A DNA stretch of 64,000 bases, from NCBI RefSeq assembly GCF_003967355.1, contig NZ_BIFH01000013.1, positions 926,651 through 990,650 of the forward strand. The letters are read 5' to 3'. Under the pieces are notes generated by a model that made no database searches, had not been told where the DNA came from, and saw only the letters and a program-made list of their open reading frames with translations. A program made the translations under genes and the position numbers. Within the stretch, counting starts at the first letter, position 1. Each line of letters opens with the position of its first letter. This DNA comes from Embleya hyalina (GTDB taxonomy: Bacteria; Actinomycetota; Actinomycetes; Streptomycetales; Streptomycetaceae). Shown here one piece after another: positions 6,277 through 48,475 of this stretch.

Positions 6277-7383
6277 TCAGGGATGTGGTGCTGTGGTTGC
6301 GGGGGTGGGGGCGGGTTTCGGTTTTGTGGCTCGTGTTGCCCTGCGTGCGGGGCCGAGGTGGGTTCGCAGACGCCAGGTGGTGAGGATCTGCTGCTCCTTG
6401 GCCGGTTCCATTCCGTGTTCGTCGTGGCGGGGGTGCGCCACGGCGGGGTCGCCGGTGGTCATCCACGTCCAGGTGTCGTGGATGGTCTCCTCGATGGGAC
6501 GGCAGGAGAATCCGGCGGCACGTGCGCGGTCGGCCGCGATGGTCCATGCGCGGGGTCCGGGCTGCCACAGGGGCAATTCCGTGAAAGGGCTGATGCCGCA
6601 GCGTTGGAGGAGGGCGTCTTCCACCCAGGCGAAGGAGGCCGTGGAGCCGGTGGTCAGGCGGCAGGCGCGGAGCAATCGGGCGAAGGTGAGCGATCCGTCG
6701 AGGGGCGTGGTGAGGTTGAACGACGCGTCCTGCGAGCCCGCGGCCACGTCGAGGGCGAAGGCGGCGATGTCGCGGACATCCGTGACCTGCACCTGCCGGT
6801 TCGGATCTCCGGGGGCGAGTACGGTCCCGCCGCGTTGCACGCGCCGCAGCCACCACGGCAGGCGGCCGACGTATTCGTACGGGCCGACGAAGATGCCGGC
6901 CCGCAGCATCGTCGACCGTTCGCCGAAGACGGAGCGGACGGCGCGTTCGCAGCCCGCCTTGAGTTCGCCGTACCGCTGCGGTGCGAACGGCCGCGCGGAC
7001 CCGTGCGGTGAACCGGTGGCGTCCGGTGGGCAGTTCCGGATCGCCGACTCGTCGCTCACGTGCCGCTCGGGCCAGTCGCGATAGGCGGCGGCGCTCGACA
7101 CGAACACGTACCGGTCGACCGCCTCGTGGAGGCTGCGCGCGCCGTGCAGAACGGTGTGGGGGATGTAGCCGCTGGTGTCGATCACGGCGTCCCACGGGCC
7201 GCAGGCCGACAGGCTCCTTATGGCCTCGGGCGACGAGCGGTCGCCGCGCAGGGCCCGGACGCCGGGTGTGTCGGGGCCCGACAGGCCGCGGTTGAACGTG
7301 GTGACGCACAGGCCGCGCCGGACGGCCTCCTCGGCCAGGGCGCGGCCGAGGAACCAGGTTCCGCCGAGAATCAGCAGCCTCAC
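6277..7383 (-). CDS. NAD-dependent epimerase/dehydratase family protein
   Basis: A 368-residue extended-SDR protein. The Rossmann motif is at the N-terminus (RLLILGGTWFLGRALAEEAV, residues 2-21), followed by SSAAAYRDWPE and an RYGELKAGCE segment, where YxxxK is replaced by YGELK. The C-terminal 40 residues are Pro/Thr/Lys-rich and look disordered. The GTG start at 7383 overlaps the stop of the acyltransferase gene (GTGA). It resembles the isoflavone-reductase/mRNA-binding-like NAD-epimerase subgroup, which often lacks a standard catalytic triad. The substrate is unknown; linkage suggests work on the product of the acyltransferase. Confidence 0.85.
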   Translation of the reverse strand: MRLLILGGTWFLGRALAEEAVRRGLCVTTFNRGLSGPDTPGVRALRGDRSSPEAIRSLSACGPWDAVIDTSGYIPHTVLHGARSLHEAVDRYVFVSSAAAYRDWPERHVSDESAIRNCPPDATGSPHGSARPFAPQRYGELKAGCERAVRSVFGERSTMLRAGIFVGPYEYVGRLPWWLRRVQRGGTVLAPGDPNRQVQVTDVRDIAAFALDVAAGSQDASFNLTTPLDGSLTFARLLRACRLTTGSTASFAWVEDALLQRCGISPFTELPLWQPGPRAWTIAADRARAAGFSCRPIEETIHDTWTWMTTGDPAVAHPRHDEHGMEPAKEQQILTTWRLRTHLGPARRATRATKPKPAPTPATTAPHP

Positions 7384-8645
7384 GGGTGGATCGGCTCCGC
7401 CCGCGGAGGCTGGGTCGGGATGACGGGCGGCGCCGGCGTCTCGAGGTGGGCCAGTGCCTGGAGGTAGAAGTCGGCCATCCGCTCCCCGAGGGGCAGCGCC
7501 TCGTCGACGACCAGGCACAGTTGCGCACTCGTGCCGTGGACGAGCAGGGCCGCCACGAACAGGTGGCCGGGCGGCAGGGCGGGATGGAAGGCTACGAACT
7601 TCGGGTCGAGGCCCGCGCCGGGGGTGAACAGGAGCGTGGTGCTGCCGCCGATGACATGCCGGGGGTGCAGTTGCCGCCCGAGCAGCCAACCGCAGAGGCG
7701 GCCGGGCAGCCACCGCACGAGGTCCCGTGCGGCCGCGCGATGACCTTGCGCGGCGGCGCCTCGGGCGATGAGGTCCACCAGGCGCTCCCGGGGCGAACTG
7801 GACGCGCCGAGCAGGGGCAACCGCAGGGCGAGCACACGGTTGCCCCACGACGGCGGGTCGTCGGGACGGCGGGCATCGACGGCCAGGAACAGCGCGGGCC
7901 GGTGCAGCCGTACTCCGGAGGCCGCCGACCATCGGTGCAACATGCCGGTGAGCGCGGCGAGATGGGCCTCGTTCGGGCCGCCGCCGAGCGGCTGGGCGAC
8001 GCGTCGCAGGCGTGCCCTGTCCACGTGGGCGTACAGGAGACGACGTCGCCCCGACAGCGGTGTCGCCGCGGTCGCCCCGGCGACGCTCGTCCCGGCGATC
8101 TCGCCCAGCAGTCGGCCCATCAGCCCGGCGGCCCGCACCGCCCGGCCCGGCAGCGGTTCGGGTCGGCTCGTCCCGGTCGGGGTGGCGCCGGTGAGTACGG
8201 TGCGCAGCGTGTGGGACGCCGCGCCGCCGTCCTGGCAGCAGTGGTGGACGCGGTAACACAGGCTGTAGCAGCCGGGTTCGTAGCCGTGGATCAGCGACAG
8301 GTCCCAGTCGGGCCGATCCCGTTCCAGCGGGCGGTCGAGCACGGAGGCCGCCACCGCTTCGAGGGGCGTGTCCCTCGGCACCTCGACCTCCACGACGTGC
8401 CGGGCGAGATCGAAGTGGGGGTCGTGGACCCATCGGGCGCGCCGCGACGAGCCCGTGAGCCGGCAGGTCAGTCCCGGCAGGACATCGACGAAGCCCGCCA
8501 GCCACGCGCGCAGGTCCTCCACACGCGGTGGGGCACCCTCGAAATGTGCGATTCCCGAGACGTCCGAACGCCCCGGGTCGCGCTCCTCCCATCCGAGGAA
8601 CATGCGGTCGAGTCCGTGCGCCCGAAAACTGGGTGTCAGCGTCAC
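7380..8645 (-). CDS. WS/DGAT-like acyltransferase
   Basis: About 421 residues from GTG 8645; an ATG at 8696 is possible but adds a non-homologous stretch. The active-site motif HHxxxDG is present as VHHCCQDGG. Other family marks are NRVLALRLPLL and a late GGSTTLLFTPGAG segment. Family members esterify fatty alcohols or diacylglycerol with acyl-CoA; actinomycete paralogues make wax esters or triacylglycerol, or acylate natural products. An AT-rich stretch (8660-8695) directly upstream, with CATAAA in the minus orientation, may be its promoter. It overlaps the epimerase gene, so the two form an operon. Confidence 0.85.
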   Translation of the reverse strand: MTLTPSFRAHGLDRMFLGWEERDPGRSDVSGIAHFEGAPPRVEDLRAWLAGFVDVLPGLTCRLTGSSRRARWVHDPHFDLARHVVEVEVPRDTPLEAVAASVLDRPLERDRPDWDLSLIHGYEPGCYSLCYRVHHCCQDGGAASHTLRTVLTGATPTGTSRPEPLPGRAVRAAGLMGRLLGEIAGTSVAGATAATPLSGRRRLLYAHVDRARLRRVAQPLGGGPNEAHLAALTGMLHRWSAASGVRLHRPALFLAVDARRPDDPPSWGNRVLALRLPLLGASSSPRERLVDLIARGAAAQGHRAAARDLVRWLPGRLCGWLLGRQLHPRHVIGGSTTLLFTPGAGLDPKFVAFHPALPPGHLFVAALLVHGTSAQLCLVVDEALPLGERMADFYLQALAHLETPAPPVIPTQPPRAEPIHP

Positions 8646-9693: not shown

Positions 9694-10245
9694 CCCCGAA
9701 TCCTGGCACGAACGAGCGGGGACGATGCCAACGAGCGTGGCCGGCTTCCGCGTTCCCTGTCATACCAACCCCGCCGACGCCGTCCGACACCCGATGGGCG
9801 GCGATCGACAGGGAGCGGGCCGGCGTCGATGCGCACGCCCGCTCCCGCTCACTCGAAAAATGCGACGGCTTCTCGCCGACGGCCCCTGGGACATCCGGCG
9901 TCCGTCGCGTGGACGGAACCGGAAGCACCGGTCCTGGCCCGGCGTTCTTCGTCGATACGATGGGTCCGACCGGCGTGACGGTGGACGTGCCCGCGGGCCC
10001 CCGGGTGACCATGGATGGCATCCGCCGGTTCGGCGTGTGCGATCGTCTCGACGCGTCGTACATCGGGTATGACTCGTGACACATCGCCTGCCGAGTGGCG
10101 GCGTTCATTCCGGGGGGTTCGACGATTCGGTCCGAAGTCCCACCGGATACGAAATGAAGTATTAGCCTGCGTTTCGGGTGCAAGCGCCTTCACTGTGAAC
10201 GATCGCCGACGCGCTCGCTCGTTCGCCGACCCATCGGGGGAATTC
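9694..10245. other. Intergenic region between divergent APH-like and ROK genes
   Basis: These 552 bp hold no ORF with convincing codon use. An AT-richer patch near 10150-10170 (ATGAAGTATTAG) is a candidate ROK promoter, but no clear -35/-10 pair stands out. Confidence 0.5.
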
Positions 10246-11502
10246 GTGGCCGATCTCCGTACCCTGCTCAGGGCGGGCGATGCCGGCAATCGCCGCCGCG
10301 TCCTGCAGGCCCTGATGATCCGCGGCGGGAACCAGACCGACGTGGCCAAGTACGCCGGCATCGCGGCGGCGACGGCGGGCAACATCCTCAGCGCCCTCGA
10401 GGGTGAGCACGTGGTGCGGCGCCAGGCGTCCGGACGCGAACAGCAGGTGAACCTGCAACCGCTGACCGGCGTCGCGGTGGGCGTCGAACTCGGCTTCCAG
10501 CGCACGTCGGTGGTGGCCCGGCGGGTCGACAGTCCGCACCTGGCGCCGGTCGGCAGGCAGGACGACGTGGGTGCCAGGCACGGTGTCCAGGCGTGGTCGA
10601 ACGCGGTGTTCGCGGCGGTGACCGCGCTCGCGGAGGAACTGGGCGAATCGCCCGACGACATGGCGACGGTCGGGCTGGCCGTCCCGGGCGCGGTCGATCC
10701 GCGCTCCGGGCTGCTGACCCCTCCGGTGTTCCCGCTGTGGCGCGATCAGCCGGAGCCGCGCGCGGAGTTGGAGCGGCTGCTGCGCGACAAGGCACGTCCC
10801 GGCACGCTGCGCGGCGAGTTGCGCGTGGTCATGGACAACGACGGCACGCTGGGCGCGCTCGCGGAGAGCGTGCACTCCCACCCCGACGCGGAGATTCTGC
10901 TGTGGATCAAGGGAGCGACCGGCGTGGGCGGCGGGCTGGTCGTCGGCGGCCAGGTGATCCGCGGCGGCAGTGGCTCGGCGGCGGAGATCGGGCACATCGT
11001 CGTCGATCCGGAGGGCGACTACTGCCAGTGCGGCGGACGCGGCTGCCTGGAAACCCTGATCGGGGCGAACACCCTGATCCGCAACGTGCGTTCGGGCCTC
11101 GGGCAGCTGCCCGTCGCCGCGCAGCCGACCGACCTCTACCAGATCGCCGACAAGGCCCGGGCCGGCAACCAGGTGTGCCTGCGGGTCCTGCGCGAGGCGG
11201 CGTTCCACCTCGGCCTCGTCCTCGGCAACGTCTGCAACGTGCTCAACCCGAGTCTCGTCCTGCTCGGTGGGGCGCTGGGTTCCGCGCACGACCTGATCCT
11301 GGCGGATTGCCGGTCCGCGATCGACCGCACCGCGCTCGCCGCGGTCCGCCTCGACGCCTCCCGTCCCGAACTGGTGGGCCCCGGCGATCCGGAGGCGAAA
11401 CATCCGCGCTTCCGCCTGGAGCCGAGCCGGCTCCCCGACGCCATCGCCCGCGGCGCGCTCATCCTGGGCATTCAAGGCGCGGGTTTCGCCGAAAATCGTT
11501 GA
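10246..11502 (+). CDS. ROK-family transcriptional regulator
   Basis: A 418-residue protein with an N-terminal winged helix-turn-helix (about residues 15-65, RRRVLQALMIRGGNQTDVAK) and a sugar-kinase-fold ROK domain. The ROK zinc motif is present (GHIVVD then CQCGGRGCLE), as are GLAVPGAV and VMDNDGTLGALAE. GTG 10246 is chosen because GGGGG at 10236-10240 is well placed; the frame stays open to 10015 but lacks homology there. ROK regulators respond to sugars or sugar phosphates. The adjacent lasso cluster is a possible but unproven target. Confidence 0.88.
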   Translation: MADLRTLLRAGDAGNRRRVLQALMIRGGNQTDVAKYAGIAAATAGNILSALEGEHVVRRQASGREQQVNLQPLTGVAVGVELGFQRTSVVARRVDSPHLAPVGRQDDVGARHGVQAWSNAVFAAVTALAEELGESPDDMATVGLAVPGAVDPRSGLLTPPVFPLWRDQPEPRAELERLLRDKARPGTLRGELRVVMDNDGTLGALAESVHSHPDAEILLWIKGATGVGGGLVVGGQVIRGGSGSAAEIGHIVVDPEGDYCQCGGRGCLETLIGANTLIRNVRSGLGQLPVAAQPTDLYQIADKARAGNQVCLRVLREAAFHLGLVLGNVCNVLNPSLVLLGGALGSAHDLILADCRSAIDRTALAAVRLDASRPELVGPGDPEAKHPRFRLEPSRLPDAIARGALILGIQGAGFAENR

Positions 11503-11701
11503 TTTCGCGGTGGATTACGTTTCAGGTTGGGCATTGTCGCCGGTCCGAGGTGTTCGATTCGTTCATTCCGAAAGGTTCATGTCGGGTCCGACACCCGTAA
11601 TTTCCGGGTCCTCCCGAGGTGGGGTCGAAAGCCGACCACCGCTTGTATGGTGGAGAAAACGTTTCGCGCCCGCCGCGGTGACGAGTCGAAGGCTGGGGAG
11701 A

Positions 11702-11983
11702 ATGCGCAGGGTTGGCGACGCTCGCATGCCGGAATCACCGGAGACTTCCGCACCCGAGGCACTTGAGGTACTTGAGGCACCGGAAGCACCGGGCGCACCG
11801 AACGCATTGAAAGCGCCCGTATCCCCCGAAGAACCCGGATCACCCGAAGCGCGCGAATCACCCGAGGGTGCCGCCGGTGCATACCAGGCCCCGATGGTCG
11901 TCGCCGTCGGCTCGGTGCGCCGGGCCACCAAGGGCAGTGCCGCCAGCGGCAAGGCGGACGCGAATTCGCAGTTCTACTGGTGA
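11702..11983 (+). CDS. Lasso peptide precursor (A protein)
   Basis: The 93-residue precursor from ATG 11702 (ATG 11726 is also possible) ends in a canonical lasso leader-core junction. The leader has the RRE-binding pattern YQAPMVVAVGSVRRATK, with Tyr61, Pro64, Gly70 and the conserved Thr76 at position -2. The predicted core is GSAASGKADANSQFYW, with Gly78 and Asp86 spaced for a 9-membered macrolactam ring and the 7-residue tail ANSQFYW, whose bulky residues could lock the thread. The first 60 residues are acidic and rich in Pro/Ala/Glu repeats, far longer than the usual 20-40 residue leader. The stop overlaps the cyclase GTG. GAAGG and GGGGAG precede the start. Confidence 0.88.
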   Translation: MRRVGDARMPESPETSAPEALEVLEAPEAPGAPNALKAPVSPEEPGSPEARESPEGAAGAYQAPMVVAVGSVRRATKGSAASGKADANSQFYW

Positions 11984-13938
11984 ACCCGTCCTCCGCGACG
12001 GCGCCCGGCCGCGCGCGGCCCGCCGAGGTCGCCGTGGCCCCCGGGTTCGTCGTCGCGATCCGGGAGCGGCCCGCACGGTCGCCGGCCGAACCCCCCGCCG
12101 ACCCCGCATCGTTGGGCCTGCCCGGCACCGCCGTGTGGTCGGCGCTGCCGGGGCTGCGCGTGTACGGGGCATGGCGGCCGGGGCAGGTGCGCTCGGCGGT
12201 GTACCGCGACGTGCGCATGGTGGTACTGGGTCACTGCCTGGCGTCCGACGACCGGCTGGCGCGCGAGCTTCGCGACATGATCGAACGCGAGGGGATCCGG
12301 GCCGACGGGATCGACGGTGGCGAGGGCCGGGTGGGTCGCGGGCTCGACCTGCCGGGCGCCTACGTGTGCGTCGTGGCCGCCCGCGACGGCGTGCGCATTC
12401 GATCCGATCTGGCCGGACAGTACCCGGTGTTCGTCTCGCGCGCGGACGGATGGGCCGTCGCCGCGTCGCACGCGCGCCTGCTCGCCCGGCTGCACGACCG
12501 CGAGCCCGACGCCGTCACCGCCGCCGCGCGGATCGCCTGCGCGCACGTGCCTCCACTGTGGGCGGACCGATCCCCGTTCCACGACGTCGCGCGGGTGACG
12601 GGCGGCGCGGTTCTTCGACTACGGCCCGGCGCGCCGCCCGTGGTGGGCCGCACCGGGACCCTCTTCGGTATCGACCCCCTCGCGCGCGGCGCGCACACGC
12701 TGCGCGACGCGCTGACCGAGGCCGTGGCCGCGCGCCGTGCCGCCGGCGCCGTGGCAAGCGACTTCAGCGGCGGACTCGACTCGACGACGCTGGCGTTCCT
12801 CGCGGCACGCGCCGGGCATGGGCCGGTGTCGGCGGTGACCTACCACCACCCGGATGCCCCGGCGGGCGACCTGGCCCATGCCCGGCGGCTCGCCCGTCTC
12901 GACGACCGGTTGCGTCACATCGTGGTCGAAGGCCGCCACGACACACTGCCGTTCGACCGGGACGCCGCCCGAAGCCAACCGACCCACACGGCGCCCGTGT
13001 GGCGGACCGACGACGACGAGCCGGTGCCGGGGATGCTCGCCCGCGGTCGGTCGCTGCTGCGCCTGGCCGCCGTCGGCCCACTGGACAGCCATCTGACCGG
13101 TGAGGGCGGAGACGCGGTTCTGGGCGCGCCCCCCGCGTATCTCGCACATGTCGCGAGCCGCGGGCACGCGCGTACGTTCGCCCGGCACTGTCTGGCGCAG
13201 GCCCGACGCCACGACACCTCCGCCGCGGCGTTGGCGGCGCGGGCGCTGCGTACGGCCCGGACATCGGGCTCCGAGGCGCTTGTACACCTCGCCGCGGCGC
13301 TGCGGTCGGGGACGATCGCCGACGGCCCCACCTCGTGGATCGACGGCGTGACGTGGTGGCCGCCGGTCGGCGAGGCGGTGTCGTGGCTGACACCGGCGAC
13401 GCGTCGCGCGCTCGCGGACCGCGCGGAGCGGGTGGCGTGCGACGGCACACACCACCTCGACGGCGCCGCGGCGGCCGTGCACGTCGCCGGTGCCGGCGAA
13501 CTGCGGCATTCCGCGGACGCGCAACGCCACCTGCGCGAACTCGGCCACCGGTACGGCGTCGACGTGCACGCGCCGTTCCTGGACGACAGGGTGGTGCGGG
13601 CGTGTCTCGCGGTCGCGCCGGGGGAGCGCGTCGACCCCGCGGGCGGCAAGCCGTTGCTCGCGGCGGCGTTGCGCGGCACGGTTCCGTCCGCCGTGCTCGG
13701 CCGCCGGACGAAGGGCGACTACAGCCGCGAGGAATACCTGGGCGCGCGGCGGGCCGAGCCGTGGCTACGAGCCTTGTGGGCGGACTCGGCCCTGGCGGAC
13801 GCCGGTATCGTCGAACCGGCGGCGGTGCTGCGGAGCCTGGCGCGGTTCACCGCGGGCGTCGCGGTACCGCTCGGCGCGATCCGGCAACTCGTGGCCACGG
13901 AAGTGTGGTTGCGTGCCCGGCGGGAGGAAGGATCGTGA
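11980..13938 (+). CDS. Lasso peptide cyclase (asparagine-synthetase-like C protein)
   Basis: A 652-residue asparagine synthetase homologue. Its ATP-pyrophosphatase loop is SGGLDSTTLAFLAA at residues 263-276. It lacks the N-terminal nucleophilic cysteine of glutamine-hydrolysing asparagine synthetases, as expected for lasso cyclases, which adenylate the ring Asp/Glu side chain and let the core amino group close the macrolactam. C-terminal marks include GEGGDAVLG and GRRTKGDYSREEYLG. The GTG start at 11980 overlaps the precursor stop (GTGA), and the stop overlaps the next start, so all three genes are translationally coupled. Confidence 0.93.
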   Translation: MNPSSATAPGRARPAEVAVAPGFVVAIRERPARSPAEPPADPASLGLPGTAVWSALPGLRVYGAWRPGQVRSAVYRDVRMVVLGHCLASDDRLARELRDMIEREGIRADGIDGGEGRVGRGLDLPGAYVCVVAARDGVRIRSDLAGQYPVFVSRADGWAVAASHARLLARLHDREPDAVTAAARIACAHVPPLWADRSPFHDVARVTGGAVLRLRPGAPPVVGRTGTLFGIDPLARGAHTLRDALTEAVAARRAAGAVASDFSGGLDSTTLAFLAARAGHGPVSAVTYHHPDAPAGDLAHARRLARLDDRLRHIVVEGRHDTLPFDRDAARSQPTHTAPVWRTDDDEPVPGMLARGRSLLRLAAVGPLDSHLTGEGGDAVLGAPPAYLAHVASRGHARTFARHCLAQARRHDTSAAALAARALRTARTSGSEALVHLAAALRSGTIADGPTSWIDGVTWWPPVGEAVSWLTPATRRALADRAERVACDGTHHLDGAAAAVHVAGAGELRHSADAQRHLRELGHRYGVDVHAPFLDDRVVRACLAVAPGERVDPAGGKPLLAAALRGTVPSAVLGRRTKGDYSREEYLGARRAEPWLRALWADSALADAGIVEPAAVLRSLARFTAGVAVPLGAIRQLVATEVWLRARREEGS

Positions 13939-14810
13939 GGATTCCCGCGCACGTGCGCCACGAGACGATGCCCGACGGCGGCGTGGTGGTGCTCGACTGC
14001 GCCGACGGCCAGTGGTACGTGTTCAACTCCGGCGCCCGGGACTTCTGGCAGTGCTGGTCGTCCGGACGAAGCCTCGCGCAGAGCGTCGCGGCCGTCGCGG
14101 AGCGGCACCCGGACCTGCCGCGCGAGCGGATCATCGCGGACGGCACCGCGCTGCTGCGACAGTTGACCGCGCTCGGCCTGGTGGAGGCGGAAGGCGAGGG
14201 TCGGGTCGGGGCGCGGTCGTCCGCCCGGGGGTGGGCCGCCCGCTTCGGGTTCGCCGAAGCCCCCTCGCGGGCGGCGAACCCCGCTCGGAGCGACGGCGCC
14301 GGCGCCGTTCCGGGCGCCGCGACCCGGGCACGGCCGATGGCCCGACGGCGTGCGATGGCCCGACGACGTGCGACATCCCGACGACGCGCGATGTCGCAAC
14401 GACGCCCGATGGGCCCACGACGCTCGGCCCTCGGCCCGCGGGTCGCCCTGCTCGGCGCCGCGCTCGCCGTGCGGCTCCCGTTCGCCGTCGTACATCGCGC
14501 GGTGCGCGCGACCCGGGGCCGATGGGCCTCCGTCCCGGAGGACCCGCGTCGGGCCGAGGAATGCCTCGCGGCCCTGCGCCACATCGCGCGCCGGTTCCCG
14601 GGGCGCGCCGCATGCCTGGAGCTCTCGCTGGCCGCCGTCCTGCTGTCCGCCGCACACCGACGCCGCCTGGACTGGTGCCTGGGGGCGGCCCCGGATCCGT
14701 TCCGATTCCACGCATGGGTCGCGTGCGACGGCGCCGCGGTCGCCGGCTCGTTGTCCGGGCCGGAGGACGACGGCGATCCCCCGCCCTACCGCGCGGTCCT
14801 GACGGTCTGA
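13935..14810 (+). CDS. Fused lasso RRE and leader peptidase (B1-B2)
   Basis: A 291-residue fusion. Residues 1 to about 90 form a PqqD-like RiPP recognition element (MPDGGVVVLDCADGQWYVFN) that binds the precursor leader. About residues 180-291 form the transglutaminase-like B2 protease with Cys227 in AACLELSLAAVLL and His259 in FRFHAWVACDG, which removes the leader. In most actinobacterial lasso clusters B1 and B2 are separate genes; here they are joined by a linker containing five Arg-rich six-residue repeats. The GTG start overlaps the cyclase stop. No lasso ABC exporter gene follows in the window. Confidence 0.88.
   Translation: MRIPAHVRHETMPDGGVVVLDCADGQWYVFNSGARDFWQCWSSGRSLAQSVAAVAERHPDLPRERIIADGTALLRQLTALGLVEAEGEGRVGARSSARGWAARFGFAEAPSRAANPARSDGAGAVPGAATRARPMARRRAMARRRATSRRRAMSQRRPMGPRRSALGPRVALLGAALAVRLPFAVVHRAVRATRGRWASVPEDPRRAEECLAALRHIARRFPGRAACLELSLAAVLLSAAHRRRLDWCLGAAPDPFRFHAWVACDGAAVAGSLSGPEDDGDPPPYRAVLTV
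14336..14425 (+). repeat. Five 18-bp tandem repeats in the lasso B linker
   Basis: Five consecutive 18-bp units, such as GATGGCCCGACGGCGTGC then GATGGCCCGACGACGTGC, diverge progressively and encode a basic series of about six residues each (MARRRA-like). They lie between the RRE and protease domains and keep frame. Confidence 0.85.
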
Positions 14811-15048: not shown

Positions 15049-15213
15049 ATGAGCGAGAACAAGCGTGGGCGACGCAAGCCCTGGATCACGATCGCCGTCG
15101 AAGCCGATTTCACCATCGGCAGGCGCCAGATCATCCGCGCCGTCAAGATCCTCTGCGGCCTGCTGGTCGCCGCCCTGCCCATCCTGCTGCGCGGCCTGGG
15201 CCTACTGCCCTGA
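15049..15213 (+). CDS. Small membrane protein of 54 residues
   Basis: Begins MSENKRGRRKPWITIAVEAD. The basic N-terminus is followed by a middle segment TIGRRQIIRAVKIL and one membrane helix (CGLLVAALPILLRGLGLLP) at the C-terminus. The ATG at 15049 follows GGAGG (15033-15037) and GAGG (15041-15044). Codon use is typical of the neighbourhood. It is downstream of the lasso operon with its own upstream region; a role in lasso export or immunity is conceivable but unsupported. Confidence 0.6.
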   Translation: MSENKRGRRKPWITIAVEADFTIGRRQIIRAVKILCGLLVAALPILLRGLGLLP

Positions 15214-16263: not shown

Positions 16264-17454
16264 CTACTCGCCGCCGAGCCACAGATCGGGGCCGAAGACC
16301 TCGTAGTGGATGTCGGCGGCGGGGACGCCGCGTTCGATGAGCCGGGCGCGTATCGCGCGCATGAAGGGCAGCGGGCCGCACAGGTAGGCGCGGGCGGCGG
16401 TCGGGACGGCGATGTCCGTCAGGTCCATGCGTCCCGCGCGGGCCTCGGTGGTGCCCTCCGCGTCGGGCGATTCGTACCAGAAGTGCGCCGCTGCCGAGGG
16501 CAGTTCGGCGGCCAGTCGGGTGTGTCGCGCGCGCAGGGCGTGCTCGGCGGGAGAACGATCGGCGTGCAGTACGGTGACGGGTCCGGCGTGGTCGACACTC
16601 ACGAGGTGGTCGAGCATCGCCACCATCGGAGTGCAGCCGATGCCGGCGGAGATCAGCAGCAGCGGCGCGTCGGCGTCGATGGACGGCACGTCGCCGTACG
16701 GGGCGGACAGGGTCAGGCGCGAGCCTTCCCGCACGTGCGCGTGCAGGTGGTTGGACACCTCTCCGTCGGGCGTGCCGTGCACCCGCTTGACGGTGATCGA
16801 CAGGGTCTCGGCGGGCGCCGCCGACAGGCTGTACTGCCTGATCTGCCGTGCACCGTCGGCGAGTTCGACCTGGACCGAGACGTACTGTCCCGGCCGGAAG
16901 CGTGGTGCGTCCGCGCCGTCGACCGGCCGCAGCCGAAACGTGACGACGTCCGCGGTCTCGCGCGAGCGCCGCACGACCTCCCAGTCGCGCCAGGTGCTTC
17001 CGTCGACGGCGCCGGCCTCGGCGTACAGGCGGGCCTCGACGGCGATCAGGGCGTTGGCCATCAGCCAGTAGACCTCGTCCCACGCGCGGGCGACGTCGGG
17101 TGTGACGGCCTCGCCGAGCACATCCACGATCGCCGCGAACAGGTGGGTGTGTACGACGACGTACTGGTCGCGGGTGACGCCGAGCGACGCGTGCTTGTGG
17201 GCGATGCGGGCGATCAGGGCGTCGGGACGAACCTGCGGGTGCTCGACGAGCGCGGTGGCGAACGCGGCGATCGAACCGGCCAGCGCCCGCTTTTGCGAAC
17301 CGTCCGCCTGGTTGCCGCGGTTGAACAGGTCGCGGAGGAGTTCGGGGTGGGCCGCGAACAACTTCTTGTAGAAGAGGTCGGTGATGTCACCGATGGCCGC
17401 GCCGATCGTCGGAAGCGTGGCGCGGACGGTGGTTGTGGCCTGCTCGGACAACAT
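16264..17454 (-). CDS. hmp: Flavohemoglobin (nitric oxide dioxygenase)
   Basis: A 396-residue three-domain protein that converts NO and O2 to nitrate using NAD(P)H. The globin domain (residues 1 to about 140) has the distal Tyr29 (DLFYKKLF) and proximal-region IAHKHASLG with His88. The FAD domain follows (RQYSLSAAP, FRPGQYVSV), then the NAD domain (ISAGIGCTPM and YLCGPLPFM). Length and order are standard. It lies 99 bp downstream of nsrR on the same strand, with an NsrR-like operator just before its start, which indicates NO-induced expression. Confidence 0.97.
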   Translation of the reverse strand: MLSEQATTTVRATLPTIGAAIGDITDLFYKKLFAAHPELLRDLFNRGNQADGSQKRALAGSIAAFATALVEHPQVRPDALIARIAHKHASLGVTRDQYVVVHTHLFAAIVDVLGEAVTPDVARAWDEVYWLMANALIAVEARLYAEAGAVDGSTWRDWEVVRRSRETADVVTFRLRPVDGADAPRFRPGQYVSVQVELADGARQIRQYSLSAAPAETLSITVKRVHGTPDGEVSNHLHAHVREGSRLTLSAPYGDVPSIDADAPLLLISAGIGCTPMVAMLDHLVSVDHAGPVTVLHADRSPAEHALRARHTRLAAELPSAAAHFWYESPDAEGTTEARAGRMDLTDIAVPTAARAYLCGPLPFMRAIRARLIERGVPAADIHYEVFGPDLWLGGE

Positions 17455-17464
17455 GACGACTCCT

Positions 17465-17487
17465 AATTGGTATCACAGATGCGTATT
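17465..17487 (-). promoter_or_regulatory. NsrR-like operator upstream of hmp
   Basis: On the minus strand the site reads AATACGCATC then a short centre then ATACCAATT, an imperfect inverted repeat of the NsrR type. The left half AATACGCATC is identical to that at the nsrR promoter (18020-18042). It lies 11 bp upstream of the hmp ATG. Confidence 0.7.
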
Positions 17488-17553
17488 AAAGAGCGGGGGA
17501 GGTGGGCGAAGGGCGTGAGACGGGCGAGGAATGGAAGGTCGGGGCGGGACGAA

Positions 17554-18003
17554 TCAGCCGGACGCGGTGGGCGCCCGGGCGATCATGCCGATCAGCGTCG
17601 GGCCGGTGGGCGAGGCGATCAGGTCGGCGAGGGTGATCGGGTCGAGCGAGGCGTAGAAGGCCTCCTGCGCACGCCGAAGCGCCCCGCGCAGACGGCAGTT
17701 CGCGGCGAGCGGACACGGCGAGTCGCCCTCGCAGGCCACCACGTCGCCGGCTCCCTCCAGTTCCCGGACCAGCGTCCCCATGGACGCGGACGCGGCGCCC
17801 GGCCCCAGGCTCAGACCGCCACCCCGACCGCGTCGCGCCTCGACCAGGCCGAGGTGCTGGAGGCGTGCGACCGCCTTGGCCGTGTGGGTGTACGGGATGT
17901 CGATCGCCTCGGCCACCCGGCGGGTGGTCAGGGACTCGTCCCGGGTGGCCGCGAGACACATCAGTGTCCGCAGCGCCACATCGGTGAACATGGCCAGTCG
18001 CAT
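17554..18003 (-). CDS. nsrR: NsrR, NO-sensing Rrf2-family repressor
   Basis: A 149-residue Rrf2 protein with an N-terminal winged helix and an iron-sulfur loop. Cys91, Cys97 and Cys103 (CEGDSPCPLAANC) keep the CX5CX5C spacing of Streptomyces NsrR, and Asp8 is present at the position of its fourth, non-cysteine ligand. ATG 18003 gives this numbering; a TTG/ATG three codons earlier is possible. NO destroys the [4Fe-4S] cluster and relieves repression of hmp and of nsrR itself. Operator-like sites precede both genes. Confidence 0.93.
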   Translation of the reverse strand: MRLAMFTDVALRTLMCLAATRDESLTTRRVAEAIDIPYTHTAKAVARLQHLGLVEARRGRGGGLSLGPGAASASMGTLVRELEGAGDVVACEGDSPCPLAANCRLRGALRRAQEAFYASLDPITLADLIASPTGPTLIGMIARAPTASG

Positions 18004-18019
18004 GCGGAGCACGCTATTT

Positions 18020-18989: not shown

Positions 18990-20105
18990 TCAGGGGTGTT
19001 CGTTTGCGAGATCGCCGGTTCGAGGTCGGTCGTCGTTTCCGGCGGGAACCGTGGTTGGCTCGGTGGCGCAGGGTGCCGGCGGGGCCGGAACGTGGGCGAA
19101 GTCGCGGGCGTTGTCCGGGCGGCGTGCCCAGCGGCCCGAGAGTACGGAGCAGACGATCAGTTGCAGTTGGTGATACAGCATCAGCGGCAGGATCGTCGTC
19201 CCGGCGTGGGCACCGAACAGGACCGCCGCCATAGGCAGGCCCGCGGCCAGGCTTTTGGTGGCGCCACCGAACACGATGGTGATCCGGTCTTCGACCGTGA
19301 AGCCCAGCCGTCGGGACGACGTCGCCGTCAGGCCGAGCGTGGCGCCCAGCAGCGCGGCGGTCACCACGACCAACGCCGCCAGCCGTGCCGGCGTGACCTG
19401 TTGCCAGACGCCTTGGACCATCCCGGCGCTGAACGCGCAGTACACGACGAGCAGGATCGAACCACGGTCGACGAGCCCGAGCCACGTCTTGTGACGGGTG
19501 ACGAACGCGCCCAGCCGGGGGCGCAGGAGTTGACCGGCGAGGAACGGCGCGAGCAGTTGTGTGCCGATGGAGAGCAGCCCGGACGCGGAGACGTCCACGC
19601 GCGAGCCGATCAACCACGCGGCGAGCAACGGCGTCGCGAGCATGCCGAGCAGACTGGAGTACGTACCGGCGCAGATCGCCGCAGGCACGTTTCCGCGCGC
19701 GACGGACGTCAGCGCGATCGAGGACTGCACGGTGGACGGGACGACGCACAGGAACAGCAGTCCGATGTACAGGTCCCGGGTGAGTACCTGTGGAACCAGG
19801 CCCGAGGCGGCGAGCCCGAAAGCGGGAAAGACGACGAACGTGCAGCAGACGATGGTGAGATGGAGCCGCCAGTGGCGGAGTCCGGCGACCGCCTCGCCGG
19901 TGGACAGTCGTGCGCCGTAGAGGAAGAAGAGAAGCCCGATGGCCACGTCCGCGCCGACGCCGAACGTCGAGGCCGCCCGACCCTGAGCGGGCAGGACCGC
20001 GGCCAGGGCGACGGTACCGAGCAGGGCCGCGATGTAGGGGTCGATCGGCAGTCGCCGCATCGTCCCGAGGAGCCGGGTACGGTGGCCGGGCGTGTCGTCC
20101 TGCAT
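18990..20105 (-). CDS. SBF-like (bile acid:sodium symporter family) transporter
   Basis: A 371-residue protein with about ten membrane helices, matching the SLC10A7/YfeH branch of the bile acid:Na+ symporter superfamily. The conserved elements VVPSTVQSSIALTSVARGN and IVFGGATKSLAAGLPMAAVLF correspond to the two crossover regions. The C-terminal 40 residues are polar. The substrate is not evident. The small secreted protein gene lies 96 bp upstream on the same strand. Confidence 0.88.
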   Translation of the reverse strand: MQDDTPGHRTRLLGTMRRLPIDPYIAALLGTVALAAVLPAQGRAASTFGVGADVAIGLLFFLYGARLSTGEAVAGLRHWRLHLTIVCCTFVVFPAFGLAASGLVPQVLTRDLYIGLLFLCVVPSTVQSSIALTSVARGNVPAAICAGTYSSLLGMLATPLLAAWLIGSRVDVSASGLLSIGTQLLAPFLAGQLLRPRLGAFVTRHKTWLGLVDRGSILLVVYCAFSAGMVQGVWQQVTPARLAALVVVTAALLGATLGLTATSSRRLGFTVEDRITIVFGGATKSLAAGLPMAAVLFGAHAGTTILPLMLYHQLQLIVCSVLSGRWARRPDNARDFAHVPAPPAPCATEPTTVPAGNDDRPRTGDLANEHP

Positions 20106-31832: not shown

Positions 31833-33500
31833 ATGAACCCGCGAACCCCCACCCGTACCGGACCCGGATCCGGATCCGGACCCGACGACGGCACACGCCA
31901 CGACACGCGTTCGGACACCGCCGACCGTGCCGCCGATACGGTCGCCGCCACCATCGCCGGATTCGGTATCCGCCTCCCCGGCGGCCCCTACCTGCTGCAC
32001 CCGGCCGACGCAACCGTGCACGCGGGCCGCGTCACCGCGCTCACCGGCGCGTCCGGCTCCGGAAAGACCACACTCCTCAAAGCCCTGCTCGGCCACCTGC
32101 CGCCCGGCGCCACCACCGACGGCACCGCACGTGTCCTCGGCCACGACGTGCTGCGCCTGGACCGCGCCACACTGAACCGGCTGCGCCGCACCGAACTCGC
32201 CTACGTCGGCCAGGACCCCGGCTCCGCGCTCAACCCCCGCATGAGCGTGCGCCGCATCGTCGCCGAGACCGCTCACGACCGAACCCGGTCGGCCGTCGAA
32301 GCCCTCCTCGCCGAATGCCGCCTGCCCCTCGACGGCGGGTTGCCCGACCGCCGCCCCGGCGCCCTGTCCGGCGGCCAGCAGCGCCGTGTCGCCCTCGCCC
32401 GCGCACTGGCCCGCAACCCCCGCCTCCTGCTGCTCGACGAACCCACCGCCGGACTCGACCCCGCACTGCGCGACGAGATCGCCCAACTCCTGCGCCACCT
32501 CGCCGACACCCGCGGACTTGCCGTGCTGATGGCCTGCCACGACCCGGAACTGGTCGGGGCGTGCGCCGACGACACCATTGCCCTCACCACTCCCGGCACC
32601 CTGGGTACGGCCGGTACGGCAGCGCAGCCGCCCCCCGACCCGAAGCGGGTGCGGACGCGGATACCGGCGGAGGGGATCACACCCGGCGAGCGCACCACCC
32701 CCCGGATCGACCCCGTTCACGTGCGCCCGCCCACCGAGTCGATCGCCCCGGCGGTGCCCGCGCAGCACGGACTCGCCGCTCACCAGGTCACCGTCGCCTT
32801 CGGTACCGGTCGCGGTCGCCGCCTGGCGCTGGACGGCCTGGACCTCACGCTGCCGGCAGGCGGCGCGGTGTCGATCGTCGGCCCGTCCGGTTCCGGGAAG
32901 ACCACGCTGCTGCGCGTGCTCGCCGGACTCGCCCTGCCCGCCTCCGGCACCCTCACGCTGGACGGCGCGCCCCTGAGCCCGGCGATCCGCCGCCGCGGAC
33001 GCGACCGGCAGCGCCGCATCCAACTCATCCCGCAGAACCCGCTCGCCACCCTCAACCCGAGCCGTACCGTCGGGGCGGCCCTCACCCGCCCACTGACACT
33101 GCACACCCGACTCACCCGCGGCCCGCGCGCCGAACGTGTCGTCGAACTGCTCGAACTGGTCGGTCTGCCCGCCGCCTTCGCCGATCGCTACCCCGTCGAG
33201 CTGTCCGGAGGCCAACGCCAGCGCGTCGCCATCGCGCGGGCCTTGGCCGTGGACCCCGACTACCTGCTGTGCGACGAAATCACCAGCGCCCTCGACCCCG
33301 ACACCGCCACCGCGATCATGGACCTCCTGAGCGCCGTGTGCGCCGAACGCGGCACAGCCGTCGCCGTGGTCACCCACGACCACCACCTGGCCGCCGACTA
33401 CACGCAGACCGTGCACGTCCTCACCGACGGCCGCCTCATCGCTCGTGGCGACGCCGCGACCCTCCTGACCCACGACACGGGGGTGGTCCGGAAGCCCTGA
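31833..33500 (+). CDS. Fused double ATPase of the ABC importer
   Basis: A 555-residue protein joining DppD- and DppF-like domains. Domain 1: Walker A GASGSGKTT near residue 72, signature LSGGQQRR, Walker B LLLLDEPTAGLDP. A linker of about 75 residues rich in Pro and Thr follows. Domain 2: Walker A GPSGSGKTT near residue 350, signature LSGGQRQR, Walker B YLLCDEITSALDP. Both sites look complete. ATG 31833 lies 7 bp after the permease stop. The four-gene unit forms a full importer. Confidence 0.93.
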   Translation: MNPRTPTRTGPGSGSGPDDGTRHDTRSDTADRAADTVAATIAGFGIRLPGGPYLLHPADATVHAGRVTALTGASGSGKTTLLKALLGHLPPGATTDGTARVLGHDVLRLDRATLNRLRRTELAYVGQDPGSALNPRMSVRRIVAETAHDRTRSAVEALLAECRLPLDGGLPDRRPGALSGGQQRRVALARALARNPRLLLLDEPTAGLDPALRDEIAQLLRHLADTRGLAVLMACHDPELVGACADDTIALTTPGTLGTAGTAAQPPPDPKRVRTRIPAEGITPGERTTPRIDPVHVRPPTESIAPAVPAQHGLAAHQVTVAFGTGRGRRLALDGLDLTLPAGGAVSIVGPSGSGKTTLLRVLAGLALPASGTLTLDGAPLSPAIRRRGRDRQRRIQLIPQNPLATLNPSRTVGAALTRPLTLHTRLTRGPRAERVVELLELVGLPAAFADRYPVELSGGQRQRVAIARALAVDPDYLLCDEITSALDPDTATAIMDLLSAVCAERGTAVAVVTHDHHLAADYTQTVHVLTDGRLIARGDAATLLTHDTGVVRKP

Positions 33501-44460: not shown

Positions 44461-45498
44461 ATGGAACTCGACGCCGGACTGCTTCCGGACTTCGCGCGCG
44501 GCTGCGCCGTCCTGGGCTCGGGCGGCGGCGGCTCGACGGCGGTCACCCTCGCCGGGGCCCGACAGGCGGTGGCCGAGCACGGGCCGGTGCGGGTGCTGCG
44601 CCCGGCGGACCTGCCCGCCGACGCGGCCGTGATGACGGTCGGCACGGTGGGTTCGTCGCCGGTGATGGGCGAGCGCCTCGGGGGGCTCGGCGAGGCGCGG
44701 CGCATGGTGGATCGGGTGACGGCGGTTCGAGGTCGGGCGCCGGTGGCGCTGATGTCGAGCGAGATCGGCGGCTCGAACGGGTGTGTGGCGGTGACGTGGG
44801 CCGCGCGGGTGGGCCTGCCGCTGCTCGACGCGGACAGCATGGGTCGGGCCTTTCCCCGGATGGATCAGAACGTGCTGGAGTTGGCCGCGATCCCGGCCAC
44901 GCCCGCCGTGCTGGCGGACGAGCGCGGCCGCACGGTGGTCGTCGACCACGCGGACGGGCCCTGGTTGGAGCGGGTGGTGCGGGGCGTGTTGAACGCGTTC
45001 GGTGGGCAGGCCGCGTGCGCGGATTATCCGCTGACCGCCGGACAGGTCGCGCGGCACGCGGTGCCGGGGTCGATCCGGCGGGCGCTGGCGGTGGGCGCGG
45101 CGTTGGCCGACGGTGTGCCGGAGGATCCGTCGCCGGTGGCGCGCCGGGTGGTCACGGGCAAGATCGCCGCGATCGAGCGGCCGGCGGATCCGGCCACGGG
45201 CATCCTGGTCGAGGGCCTGGGCCGGGACGCGGGCCGGCTGCTGCGGATCGAGGCGCAGACGGAGTTCCTGGCCGTGCTGGAGGACGGCCGGCCGGTGGTG
45301 GTGACGCCGGACATCATCGCGCTGGTGGACACCCGGACGGGTGAGGCGTTGCAGGTCGAGGCGTTGCGGTACGGGTTGCGGGTGTCGGTGTTGGCCCTCG
45401 AGTGCGCGCCGGCGTGGCGTACCGAGGCGGGACTTCGGCTCGGCGGGCCGGCGGCGTTCGGGTTGGATCTGCCCGGATGTACGGAGGCCCGGCGATGA
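44461..45498 (+). CDS. DUF917-family protein (first copy)
   Basis: A 345-residue protein of the DUF917/S-Me-THD-like family that accompanies hydantoinases. Marks are GCAVLGSGGGGSTAV (residues 15-29), SSEIGGSNG, LLDADSMGRAFPRMDQ and the C-terminal VTPDIIALVDTRTGEALQVE. A paralogue lies at 50082. The stop overlaps the next ATG. Confidence 0.9.
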   Translation: MELDAGLLPDFARGCAVLGSGGGGSTAVTLAGARQAVAEHGPVRVLRPADLPADAAVMTVGTVGSSPVMGERLGGLGEARRMVDRVTAVRGRAPVALMSSEIGGSNGCVAVTWAARVGLPLLDADSMGRAFPRMDQNVLELAAIPATPAVLADERGRTVVVDHADGPWLERVVRGVLNAFGGQAACADYPLTAGQVARHAVPGSIRRALAVGAALADGVPEDPSPVARRVVTGKIAAIERPADPATGILVEGLGRDAGRLLRIEAQTEFLAVLEDGRPVVVTPDIIALVDTRTGEALQVEALRYGLRVSVLALECAPAWRTEAGLRLGGPAAFGLDLPGCTEARR

Positions 45499-46850
45499 GC
45501 GGCGGGGTGCGCACGATCGGTGTGGACGTGGGCCCGACGAACACCGATGGCGCGCTGTTGGCCGGGGACGTGCCGGTGGCCACGGTCAAGGTGCCGTCGG
45601 CCGGGGATCCGGTGGAGAGCGTGCGGACCGCGGTGGCCGCGCTGATGCGCGAGGCGCCGCGTGGGCCGAGGGCCGCACACGTGGCGATCGGCCTGCGCAC
45701 CGCGGCGCACGCGGTGACCCGGCGGGCCGGGTTGACCCGGGTCGGGGTGCTGCGGATCGGCGGTCCGGTGTCGGACGCGGTGCCGCCGCTGGCGCAGTGG
45801 CCCGCCGATCTGCGCACGGCCGTGCACGCGGGCAGCGCGATGGTGGACGGCGGCGCGGGGTTGACCCGGGCCGATGCCGTCGCGCTGGATCGGGACGCGG
45901 TGGCGCGGTTCGCGGGCGCGCTGGCCGGTCGGTGTGACGCGTTCGCGGTGACCGGGGTGTTCTCCCCGATCGACGACACGCAGGAGCACGAGGCGGCCGA
46001 GATCATCCGCCGGGAGGTGGGGACGGACGCGTTCGTGGGCCTGTCCGCCGGGTCCGGTGGGCTGGGTCTGATCGAACGGGAGAACGGTACGGTCCTCGAT
46101 GCCGCGTTGTCGCGGCACACCCGGGCGCTGGCGGACGCGTTGACCGCCGCGCTCGGCGCGCTGGGGTTGTCGTCGGCGACGGTCCTGGTGGCGCGCGGCG
46201 ACGGCACGTTGACCTCGCTGGAGTATCTGCGGCTGCATCCGGGTCTGGCCCTGGGCAGCGGCCCGGCGGGTACGCTGCGCGGCGCCGGGTTGTTGACCGG
46301 GCTGGCCGACGCGGTGGTCGCCGACGTCGGGGCGCGGCGGATCCGGGTGGGCGTGTTGGCGGGTGGTTTCCCGCAGGAGAGCCGACCCGGCGTGGTCATC
46401 GGCGGTGTGCCGGTGAGCTTCCCGATGCCCGATCTGATCCGGGTGCCGGCCGACGATCCGGACGCGTTCGAGGAGGCGGTGGACCGGATGCAGCCCGGTG
46501 CGGCGCGCCTGCCGCTGGTCGTGGTCGGCGGTGGCTCGGCGGCGTCGGCGGCCGGCTCGGCGCCGGCCGCGGACATCGTGCTGCCCGAACACGGCCTGGT
46601 GGCCGGGGCGTTCGGGGCCGCGCTCAGTCCGGTCGGCGGTGCGTACGAGCAACTGGTGCGCACGGGCGAGGCGGGCGAGGCGCACGCGGTGGACGAGGTC
46701 CGCGAGGGTGCGCGGCGCAGCGCGGTGCGCGCGGGGGCGGATCCGCGCCGGGTCGTCGTACTGCCGGTCGAGCGGGTGCCCGTGCCGTACCTTCCCGGCC
46801 CCGCGTTCAGTCTGCGGGCGCGAGCGGTGGGCCCGCCGTCACCGCTGTGA
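45495..46850 (+). CDS. Hydantoinase/oxoprolinase-like protein with altered nucleotide-binding motifs
   Basis: A 451-residue HyuA-type protein of the ASKHA fold. ATG 45495 follows ACGGAGG and overlaps the DUF917 stop. Compared with the paralogue at 48476, the phosphate-1 loop is GVDVGPTNTDGALL (Pro in place of the second Gly) and phosphate-2 is DVGARRIRVGVL instead of DVGGTTADVGIL. About 90 residues are also missing overall. ATP hydrolysis may be weakened, and it could act as a regulatory partner of DUF917. Confidence 0.85.
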   Translation: MSGGVRTIGVDVGPTNTDGALLAGDVPVATVKVPSAGDPVESVRTAVAALMREAPRGPRAAHVAIGLRTAAHAVTRRAGLTRVGVLRIGGPVSDAVPPLAQWPADLRTAVHAGSAMVDGGAGLTRADAVALDRDAVARFAGALAGRCDAFAVTGVFSPIDDTQEHEAAEIIRREVGTDAFVGLSAGSGGLGLIERENGTVLDAALSRHTRALADALTAALGALGLSSATVLVARGDGTLTSLEYLRLHPGLALGSGPAGTLRGAGLLTGLADAVVADVGARRIRVGVLAGGFPQESRPGVVIGGVPVSFPMPDLIRVPADDPDAFEEAVDRMQPGAARLPLVVVGGGSAASAAGSAPAADIVLPEHGLVAGAFGAALSPVGGAYEQLVRTGEAGEAHAVDEVREGARRSAVRAGADPRRVVVLPVERVPVPYLPGPAFSLRARAVGPPSPL

Positions 46851-46955
46851 CCGGGCTTCGCACCGCATTCGCGGGGCCGTACGCGTCCCGGTGACGCGCG
46901 CCCCGTTCAGCTTTCACCTTCGCCCTTCACCGTGCCTCGCCCTGGAGGAATGCGC

Positions 46956-48371
46956 ATGACCACGGACAGCAGAACGCCCGCCGTCGCGAAGGAGCCTCGT
47001 GTGGGCACATCGGACGCCCTGGACGAGGACTATCCGCTGGAGCGGGTGCCGAGGTCCGCGCGCCACGCGTGGTTCAACGTCGCCGTCCAGCGTTTCGGCC
47101 AACTCTCCGACCTGACCCAGTTCCTGCTCGGCGCGACGCTGGGCGCGGGGTTGAGTTTCTGGGGCGCGTTCTGGGCCTTCACGCTCGGTTCGGTGATCCT
47201 GGAGGTGGTGTGCGTCTTCGTCGGCGTCGCCGGGATGCGCGAGGGGTTGACCACGTCGGTGCTGGCGCGCTGGACCGGGTTCGGCCGCTACGGGTCCGCC
47301 CTGATCGGGCTGGTGATCGCGGTGAGCCTGTTCGGTTGGTTCGGGGTGCAGACCGCGGTGTTCGCCGCCGGGTTGCACTCGTTGGCGTCGGGTGTGCCGC
47401 TGTGGGGGTGGTGTCTGATCACCGGTCTGGGGGTGACGCTCCTGGTGTTGCGCGGGTTCCGGGCGATGGGGTGGACGGCGTTCGTGACGGTGCCCGCGTT
47501 CCTGGGGCTGGCCGGGTGGGCGATGACGGTGGAGATCTCCCGGCACGACATGGGCGATCTGCTCGCGTCCCCGCCGTTCGGCGAGCACATATCGATCGCG
47601 ACCGGCGCGACGATCGTGGCCGGTTCGTACATCGTGGGCGCGGTCACCACGCCCGACATGACGCGCTTCAACCGGTCGACGGGGGACGTGGTCAAGCAGA
47701 CGCTGGTCGGGATCTCGCTGGGCGAGTACGTGTTGGGCCTGGCCGGGGTGTTGTTGGCGTACGCGGTGAAGTCGTCCGACGTGATCGCCATCATCACCGC
47801 GTCCTCGGGCGTGGTGGGGGTGCTGATCCTGGTGTCGGCCACCGTGAAGATCAACAACTGGAATCTGTATTCCGCCTCGCTCGGCCTGATCAGCGCCGTC
47901 GAGTCGACGATCGGGGTGCGGTTGAACCGTACGGCCGTGACGATCGTCTTCGGCGTGCTGGGCAGCCTCGCGGCGGCGGCCGGCATCCTCGACCGGTTCA
48001 CCGACTTCCTGACCGTGCTCGGTGTGGTGACCCCGCCGATCGCGGGCATCATGGTCGCCGAGTACTTCGTGACCAAACGCTGGCGCCCGCAACTGGACGC
48101 CTCCCGGGCGATCGGCCGGCTCCCGGAGACCGAACCCTCGTGGGTGCCCGCCACGATCGTGGTGTGGAGCGCGGCCTCGGTGGTCGGCTGGTTGTGCGAC
48201 CACTACCAGTGGTGGGGCGTGCCGGCGCTGAACTCCCTGCTGCTGGCCGGGTTCGGGTACATCGTCGCCGGCCGGCTGAACCTGGTGCACCCGCACCGCG
48301 AACTCCCGGTCGAGCAACCGGCCCACCCGGCGGCGGCCCGTGAGATCGAGGCGGCCGCGACGGCGATCTGA
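46956..48371 (+). CDS. NCS1-family nucleobase/hydantoin permease
   Basis: A 471-residue transporter with 12 helices, CodB/Mhp1-like: LERVPRSARHAWFNVAVQRF, LTQFLLGATLGAGLSFW, TTPDMTRFNRSTGDVVKQTL and IKINNWNLYSASLG. NCS1 members import cytosine, allantoin, hydantoins or uracil with Na+ or H+. ATG 46956 follows GGAGG (46944-46948). Flanked by hydantoinase genes, it probably brings in their substrate. Confidence 0.92.
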   Translation: MTTDSRTPAVAKEPRVGTSDALDEDYPLERVPRSARHAWFNVAVQRFGQLSDLTQFLLGATLGAGLSFWGAFWAFTLGSVILEVVCVFVGVAGMREGLTTSVLARWTGFGRYGSALIGLVIAVSLFGWFGVQTAVFAAGLHSLASGVPLWGWCLITGLGVTLLVLRGFRAMGWTAFVTVPAFLGLAGWAMTVEISRHDMGDLLASPPFGEHISIATGATIVAGSYIVGAVTTPDMTRFNRSTGDVVKQTLVGISLGEYVLGLAGVLLAYAVKSSDVIAIITASSGVVGVLILVSATVKINNWNLYSASLGLISAVESTIGVRLNRTAVTIVFGVLGSLAAAAGILDRFTDFLTVLGVVTPPIAGIMVAEYFVTKRWRPQLDASRAIGRLPETEPSWVPATIVVWSAASVVGWLCDHYQWWGVPALNSLLLAGFGYIVAGRLNLVHPHRELPVEQPAHPAAAREIEAAATAI

Positions 48372-48393
48372 ATCCATCGGCCCTTCGGTCGTT

Positions 48394-48446
48394 CGCCACA
48401 TCGCCACATCGGCACATCGCCACGCCGGCACACCGGCACACCGCAC
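48394..48446. repeat. Short CACATCG/CACACCG repeats
   Basis: Imperfect 8-9-bp units (CGCCACAT, GGCACATCG, GGCACACC) fill the gap between the permease and second hydantoinase genes, ending before the GAGGA ribosome site. Confidence 0.7.
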
Positions 48447-48475
48447 TCTCGCACTTCGGCAAGAGGAATCACCAC

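Follow-up and report, generated by a model that had tools for sequence, protein, structure and literature searches.

The stretch of DNA analysed here, referred to below as the window, comprises 64,000 nucleotides of the Embleya hyalina genome (contig NZ_BIFH01000013.1, positions 926,651–990,650; G000:C13:926651-990650 in our numbering, G000 being this 12.05 Mb genome) and carries a compact lasso peptide gene cluster directly preceded by a gene for a ROK-family transcriptional regulator. Three plus-strand genes make up the cluster: that of the 93 aa precursor (11702–11983), that of a 652 aa lasso macrolactam cyclase of the Asn-synthetase type (GTG start, 11980–13938) and that of a 291 aa protein (GTG start, 13935–14810) in which a RiPP recognition element (RRE; residues 17–83) is fused to a leader peptidase (residues 176–272), hereafter the B protein. 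A sequence-only reading of the window had proposed this three-gene order with GTGA overlaps, and the coordinates bear it out at both the precursor/cyclase and the cyclase/B junction. GGGGAGA lies immediately 5' of the precursor start at 11702. Arg-rich near-repeats (RRRAMARRRATSRRRAMSQRR; 14330–14425) form the linker of the B protein.

The C-terminal end of the precursor reads YQAPMVVAVGSVRRATK-GSAASGKADANSQFYW, and its translation confirms the core letters, the Thr at −2 and the Gly1/Asp9 spacing given in the earlier reading. The 77 aa leader (11702–11932) has a YxxP motif, Gly at −8 and Thr at −2, and scores 24.3 bits against NCBIfam lasso_leader_L3 NF033521 (cut-off 19). The core, GSAASGKADANSQFYW, occupies 11933–11980, followed by a stop codon at 11981–11983; a Gly1–Asp9 isopeptide ring is predicted, with a calculated monoisotopic mass of 1640.722 for the lasso. 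For the cyclase the Pfam match is Asn_synthase (97.4 bits, cut-off 21); the B protein matches Pfam PqqD (31.6 bits, cut-off 23.4), Pfam Transglut_core3 (60.4 bits, cut-off 26) and lasso_biosyn_B2 (66.7 bits, cut-off 33). A recognised leader with Gly1 and Asp9, an Asn-synthetase-type cyclase and an RRE with a transglutaminase-like leader peptidase are thus all present, and the homology of all three parts supports the interpretation of the gene set as a lasso peptide biosynthetic cluster, as had been proposed; production and threading of the peptide are predictions.

The regulator gene (10246–11502, plus strand; start codon assigned by our own gene caller) had gone unmentioned in the sequence-only reading, as had the core's occurrence in further genomes. 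Its product scores 121.1 bits against Pfam ROK (cut-off 22.9) and carries the metal-site motif CQCGGRGCLE in its C-terminal ROK domain. In an AlphaFold2 model with a mean pLDDT (predicted local distance difference test) of 73.8, in which residues 225–271 are poor, helices 14–25, 30–37 and 41–53 constitute the predicted N-terminal helix-turn-helix. The best Foldseek matches to this model are the ROK repressors 1z05 and Mlc (1z6r).

That the core might be unique to the window is ruled out by sister cores in other genomes. The pattern G[SN][SA]xxGx[AS]DANxx[YF]YW describes a family present in 34 genome records (17 distinct core peptides, 29 distinct DNA sequences) from at least four actinobacterial families. 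Its members are found in Embleya, Streptomyces, Wenjunlia, Herbidospora, Nonomuraea cavernae, [Actinomadura] parvosata (record title), Saccharothrix, Crossiella, Nocardia sp. NRRL S-836 (record title) and G661, a genome from another family of the order. The records comprise 27 precursors from a scan of the genome_contigs collection with the core pattern, six genomes from genome searches and the window itself. The scan returned 35 stretches, the other eight of which (L022, L025, L031, L036, L040, L044, L052 and L054) were rejected as chance occurrences, with no ROK, cyclase or B matches. Searching 297 family genomes with the cyclase gave ten matches with E-values of 1e-60 or below, one of them the window's own; identity to the window's cyclase was 83% in one same-genus relative and 41–43% in the eight others, and a sister core lies upstream of the cyclase in all ten genomes. 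G661 was found by a ROK search and its core, GSSSSGTSDANSQYYW, is outside the reach of the scan pattern. As to the earlier remark on an undescribed core, the exact core and six core fragments were absent from the literature searched (supplements excluded; published lasso-mining tables may list the family), but the core is no one-off. The accessible part of one report (PMC9415966) gives antiSMASH lasso predictions for two Crossiella strains and shows neither core nor regulator. A plasmid search with the precursor yielded no matches.

Seven core positions (G1, G6, D9, A10, N11, Y15 and W16) are invariant in all 34 cores, six of which, all but G1, are fixed by the scan pattern itself for 27 of the 34. 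For this reason the rate test was repeated on 13 loci that cyclase or ROK searches had turned up independently of the core, a set which contains close pairs. There the proportions of nonsynonymous (pN) and synonymous (pS) differences were 0.116 and 0.561 for the core, against 0.383 and 0.533 for the cyclase (12 cyclases), and only three of 571 sixteen-codon cyclase windows matched the conservation of the core. Across 24 representatives chosen from the 34 cores, a wider set, pN came to 0.099 (core), 0.320 (the adjacent 18 leader residues), 0.378 (cyclase), 0.374 (ROK protein) and 0.410 (B). The family leaders retain P at −14 and G at −8 throughout (34/34) and Y at −17 in 31. Leaders from Herbidospora and N. 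cavernae (L021, L023, L029, L034, L039, L050, L051 and L049) combine Phe at −2 with Asn at core position 2.

One might argue from the ring, GSAASGKAD, which has no bulky residues, that all-small residues together with an aromatic end give no stable lasso, and that the locus specifies an unthreaded macrocycle or no natural product whatsoever. We consider this highly improbable, given the complete enzyme set and the occurrence of Gly1, Asp9, Tyr15 and Trp16 in every one of the 34 cores (the last three fixed by the scan pattern for 27).

The ROK regulator recurs with the cluster and is part of the lasso unit. It lies upstream of 31 of the 34 core copies, the remaining three being without upstream DNA; these are core-scan loci (L028, L037 and L051, leaving 24 of 27 with a ROK) which begin too near the core to show it. 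In the cyclase search a same-strand ROK gene stands just upstream in ten of ten cases (nine relatives and the window). When 293 genomes of the order were searched with the ROK protein, eight matches reached an E-value of 1e-50 or below, one of them in the window, and all eight adjoin lasso genes. The window's genome holds 21 ROK matches in 12 Mb, and despite this number the linked proteins group together, which rules out the ROK gene as a random neighbour: in a tree that also holds 26 paralogs taken from three genomes, the 23 cluster-linked ROKs come together as a single group (100/100). This tree omits near-copies (L021, L029, L034, L046, L017 and L042), two truncated sequences (L041 and L048) and those 23 of the 49 paralog loci that lack a CxCGxxGCxE-bearing frame; it retains four linked ROKs in which the exact motif is missing.

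The ROK repressors Mlc, Lmo0178 and 1z05 have their fold and metal-site motif in common with the window's regulator; unlike them, its clade is bound to one lasso family. DND, EIGH and CLE, which we take to be the sugar-contact residues of ROK kinases, are kept in the window's ROK and in the Streptomyces ROKs compared. In the ROKs of Herbidospora and N. cavernae, where in reach, DAD or DTD stands in place of DND. Lasso peptides and ROK regulators are both already known. Neither a pairing of the two nor a dedicated ROK-type lasso regulator was found in the literature searched, the main lasso-mining papers lying outside the search; the part of PMC13381572 available to us concerns a B. subtilis rok mutant used as a host.

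An expectation-maximization (EM) search of 18 ROK–precursor gaps returned TCAATTCGAA-like sites with a log-likelihood ratio of 56.8, versus 22.9–27.9 in five shuffles (120 seeds for the real set, 60 for the shuffles); the gap of N. cavernae has no instance. This motif is also enriched in 15 ROK upstream regions whose DNA took no part in motif training (17 were available, two of them of insufficient length): the mean best score is 9.13, against an average of 4.98 and a highest value of 6.59 among 300 shuffled sets, and nine of the 15 reach a score of 9 or more against a shuffle maximum of four. Compared with 230 other gene upstreams the difference is significant at p = 4e-7; for several ROK genes the called start is too far 3', so that some of the regions tested fall inside the gene. 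By eye, the site often reads TTCAATTTGAAG and is directly 5' of a TAATCT-like −10. A 16-base form, allowing up to two mismatches, matched the ROK promoter in four of six whole genomes and elsewhere only twice, both times in G234 (the reversed control gave 3 matches); this pattern derives from relatives' ROK promoters, so the promoter matches are partly by construction and the scarcity elsewhere is the informative part. K-mer counts in 17 ROK–precursor gaps gave mostly GC-rich words, with CTTCGAATTG-like words in eight of 17 (shuffle maxima 7–9); TTCGAATTGA occurs in eight of 17 versus a shuffle mean of 0.25, a comparison which is circular since the word was chosen afterwards.

In the window itself a candidate ROK site, TTCGATTCGTTCATTCCGAA, is located between the ROK and precursor genes (11553–11572, no strand assigned; best EM instance 11562–11572, score 9.5). 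A weak candidate, TCATTTCGTA, lies upstream of the ROK gene (10148–10157, minus strand); its score of 7.9 is reached by 8.3% of 230 control upstreams. We regard the motif as a candidate operator with predicted ROK binding and a local regulon. Its palindrome-like form and its enrichment both in the ROK–precursor gap and in the ROK promoter suggest a private, self-regulated switch.

The best explanation, and one to which we give slightly better than an even chance, is that the lasso peptide operon is controlled by a ROK repressor dedicated to it. The repressor would occupy palindrome-like TTCAAnnTGAA sites both in the promoter of its own gene and ahead of the precursor gene, keeping both low, until freed by a small-molecule ligand, for which a hexose-type sugar is the simplest candidate in the window's clade. 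Precursor, cyclase and fused B would then be translated together. Lasso formation, by homology, would take the standard route: the RRE would hold the YxxP...G leader, the peptidase would cleave after Lys −1, and the cyclase would activate Asp9 and join it to the Gly1 amine around a threaded tail. Since the product stayed nearly constant while the enzymes diverged, the mature peptide most likely acts on a conserved partner. Several observations weigh against this scheme. Thr at −2 is swapped for Phe in eight of the 34 leaders and for Ala in one; the 16-base site is unmatched in two of the six genomes (G051 and G078); both sites in the window are weaker than those of its relatives; the sugar-contact residues are altered in the Herbidospora and N. 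cavernae ROKs compared; and no conserved linked ABC exporter was found in 18 neighbourhoods, in a screen that may have overlooked an exporter that is distant or not of ABC type.

Those altered residues, in genomes where the core stays, lend themselves to another interpretation, namely a closed loop in which ROK would have as its ligand the finished lasso peptide itself or a linear fragment of it, making the peptide a signal in an autoinducer or feedback circuit. The one-to-one linkage of ROK with a nearly invariant peptide fits such a loop, and the scarcity of strong 16-base matches outside the ROK promoter, two across the six genomes, speaks against a wide sugar regulon. Characterised ROK regulators, however, are sensors of sugars or phosphotransferase partners, the contact residues are intact in the window's ROK and in the Streptomyces ROKs compared, and peptide binding by ROK is purely hypothetical here. 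We favour ligand-released repression and treat the peptide-sensing loop as a live, if rather improbable, alternative.

With nearly the same peptide recurring in many soil actinobacteria, a shared job is probable. One core near-constant across families, together with a regulator of a sugar-sensing family, points to a conserved physiological role, which is testable via ROK release and cluster activation.

The closest named family to the window's cyclase is that of the albusnodin/ikarugamycin-family macrolactam cyclases (NCBIfam NF033561), against which it scores 290 bits (cut-off 300); the homologue in G051 is above the cut-off at 338.9 bits. The albusnodin cluster includes an acetyltransferase gene and its peptide a conserved Lys10, according to the accessible part of PMC9266682; here position 10 is Ala in all 34 cores and no GNAT-type gene was found among the ten neighbouring genes scanned. 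For triculamin and lariocidin, also bacterial lasso peptides, Lys acetylation is described as self-resistance in the portion of PMC13352647 at hand, and a gene for it was likewise unseen among these ten genes. A WS/DGAT-type acyltransferase gene at 7380–8522, on the opposite strand, is not recurrent in nine relatives.

The window-family cyclases form one group in a tree of 21 rows and 7 outgroups (support 100/98; L021, L029, L046, L017, L051 and truncated copies omitted). Five other clusters in the wider cyclase family (L131–L135) have B split into B1 and B2 and no ROK match, and by eye an ABC-type gene is next to B2 in four of them. The latter (L132–L135, gene order A-C-B1-B2-D) agree with the window in enzyme classes and in gene order up to B; they differ from its family in their separate B1 and B2, in the ABC-type gene that follows and in having no ROK match. 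B is fused in the window and in ten of ten relatives tested by Pfam (11/11), a regular expression for the fusion having proved too strict (0/23). We read the window's cluster as one of a conserved lasso family with a fused B, a ROK switch of its own and no conserved linked ABC exporter found.

Exporter-type Pfam families were absent from the ten neighbouring genes scanned around the cluster, one of which specifies an SBF-type transporter (18990–20105); the statement in the sequence-only reading that no exporter gene is adjacent holds to this extent. Across the 18 neighbourhoods ABC genes occur within about 10 kb in three, at differing places. This screen detects ABC ATPase motifs, its crude membrane-span count missed the SBF-type transporter, and its reach per locus ranged between less than 1 kb and roughly 10 kb on each side, with the window slice extending to 32000. 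An ATPase-like gene noted by eye at 32016–33500 is just beyond this slice.

Most work on lasso peptides treats them as antibiotics whose cores vary and which have exporters. An ordinary antibacterial peptide leaving via an unlinked transporter, with ROK merely coupling production to nutrient state, would suit the ABC-type gene next to B2 in four of the five split-B relatives, which implies that related pathways are exported, as well as the ABC genes in three neighbourhoods. It sits poorly with the near-constant core, the want of a conserved linked exporter in the 18 neighbourhoods and that of a GNAT-type acetyltransferase in the ten genes, and we judge it possible but unlikely.

Further lasso-related genes were noted in passing. 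The window's genome encodes a second cyclase of the family at L059 (G000:C15:476000-495000), 38% identical, with precursor and B unseen beside it; cyclase matches of similar identity are present in four of four genomes of the genus, of which L059 alone was inspected. The same genome contains L131 (G000:C45:4000-19000), with leader YVAPEVVEVGGFAEVTL, likely core GQQGELLEFILERTS, a split B and no ROK match. L057/L060 (G392:C10) has a related precursor with likely core GTAAHDTADMNTARYY, a separate B1 and no ROK match.

Downstream of the B gene, 15049–15213 (plus strand) encodes a 54-aa protein with one predicted membrane span, a possible accessory gene that may be linked to the lasso system. A homology search gave strong matches only in G000 and G004, the two cluster-bearing members of the genus, none in G020 and G031, and five further weak matches (E 0.0015–0.008). 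In 13 distinct genomes a small one-span open reading frame (ORF) lies on the opposite strand 40–360 bases after B; these make up one family clearly for some and by eye for others. One of them, used as a query against the 297 family genomes, gave five matches, all in cluster-bearing genomes and adjoining the cluster, and was unmatched in five other cluster-bearing genomes of the cyclase search. No such ORF was seen after B in Herbidospora, S. niveus, L017, L032 or L121. Identity between the 54-aa protein and the small opposite-strand ORFs is 17–26%, a level at which relatedness is undecidable. A more speculative extension would make the whole a conserved actinobacterial peptide signal, a closed circuit in which the ROK fold turned from sugar to peptide sensing in at least part of the clade and the co-occurring membrane protein of about 50 residues serves as receptor, porter or immunity factor; we think this a shade less probable even than the peptide-sensing loop.

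Elsewhere in the window, a minus-strand flavohaemoglobin-like gene (Globin/FAD/NAD, 16264–18012) beside an Rrf2-type regulator has the look of a nitric-oxide response pair. By eye, the region 44461–51140 holds a permease-like gene with a gene pair on either side; the two pairs resemble each other (starts MELDAGLLPDFARGCAVLGSGGGG and MREIGIEQLADIARGAGILGTGGGG), the partner in each being a gene of the MxxGVDVGxTNTDxxL type.

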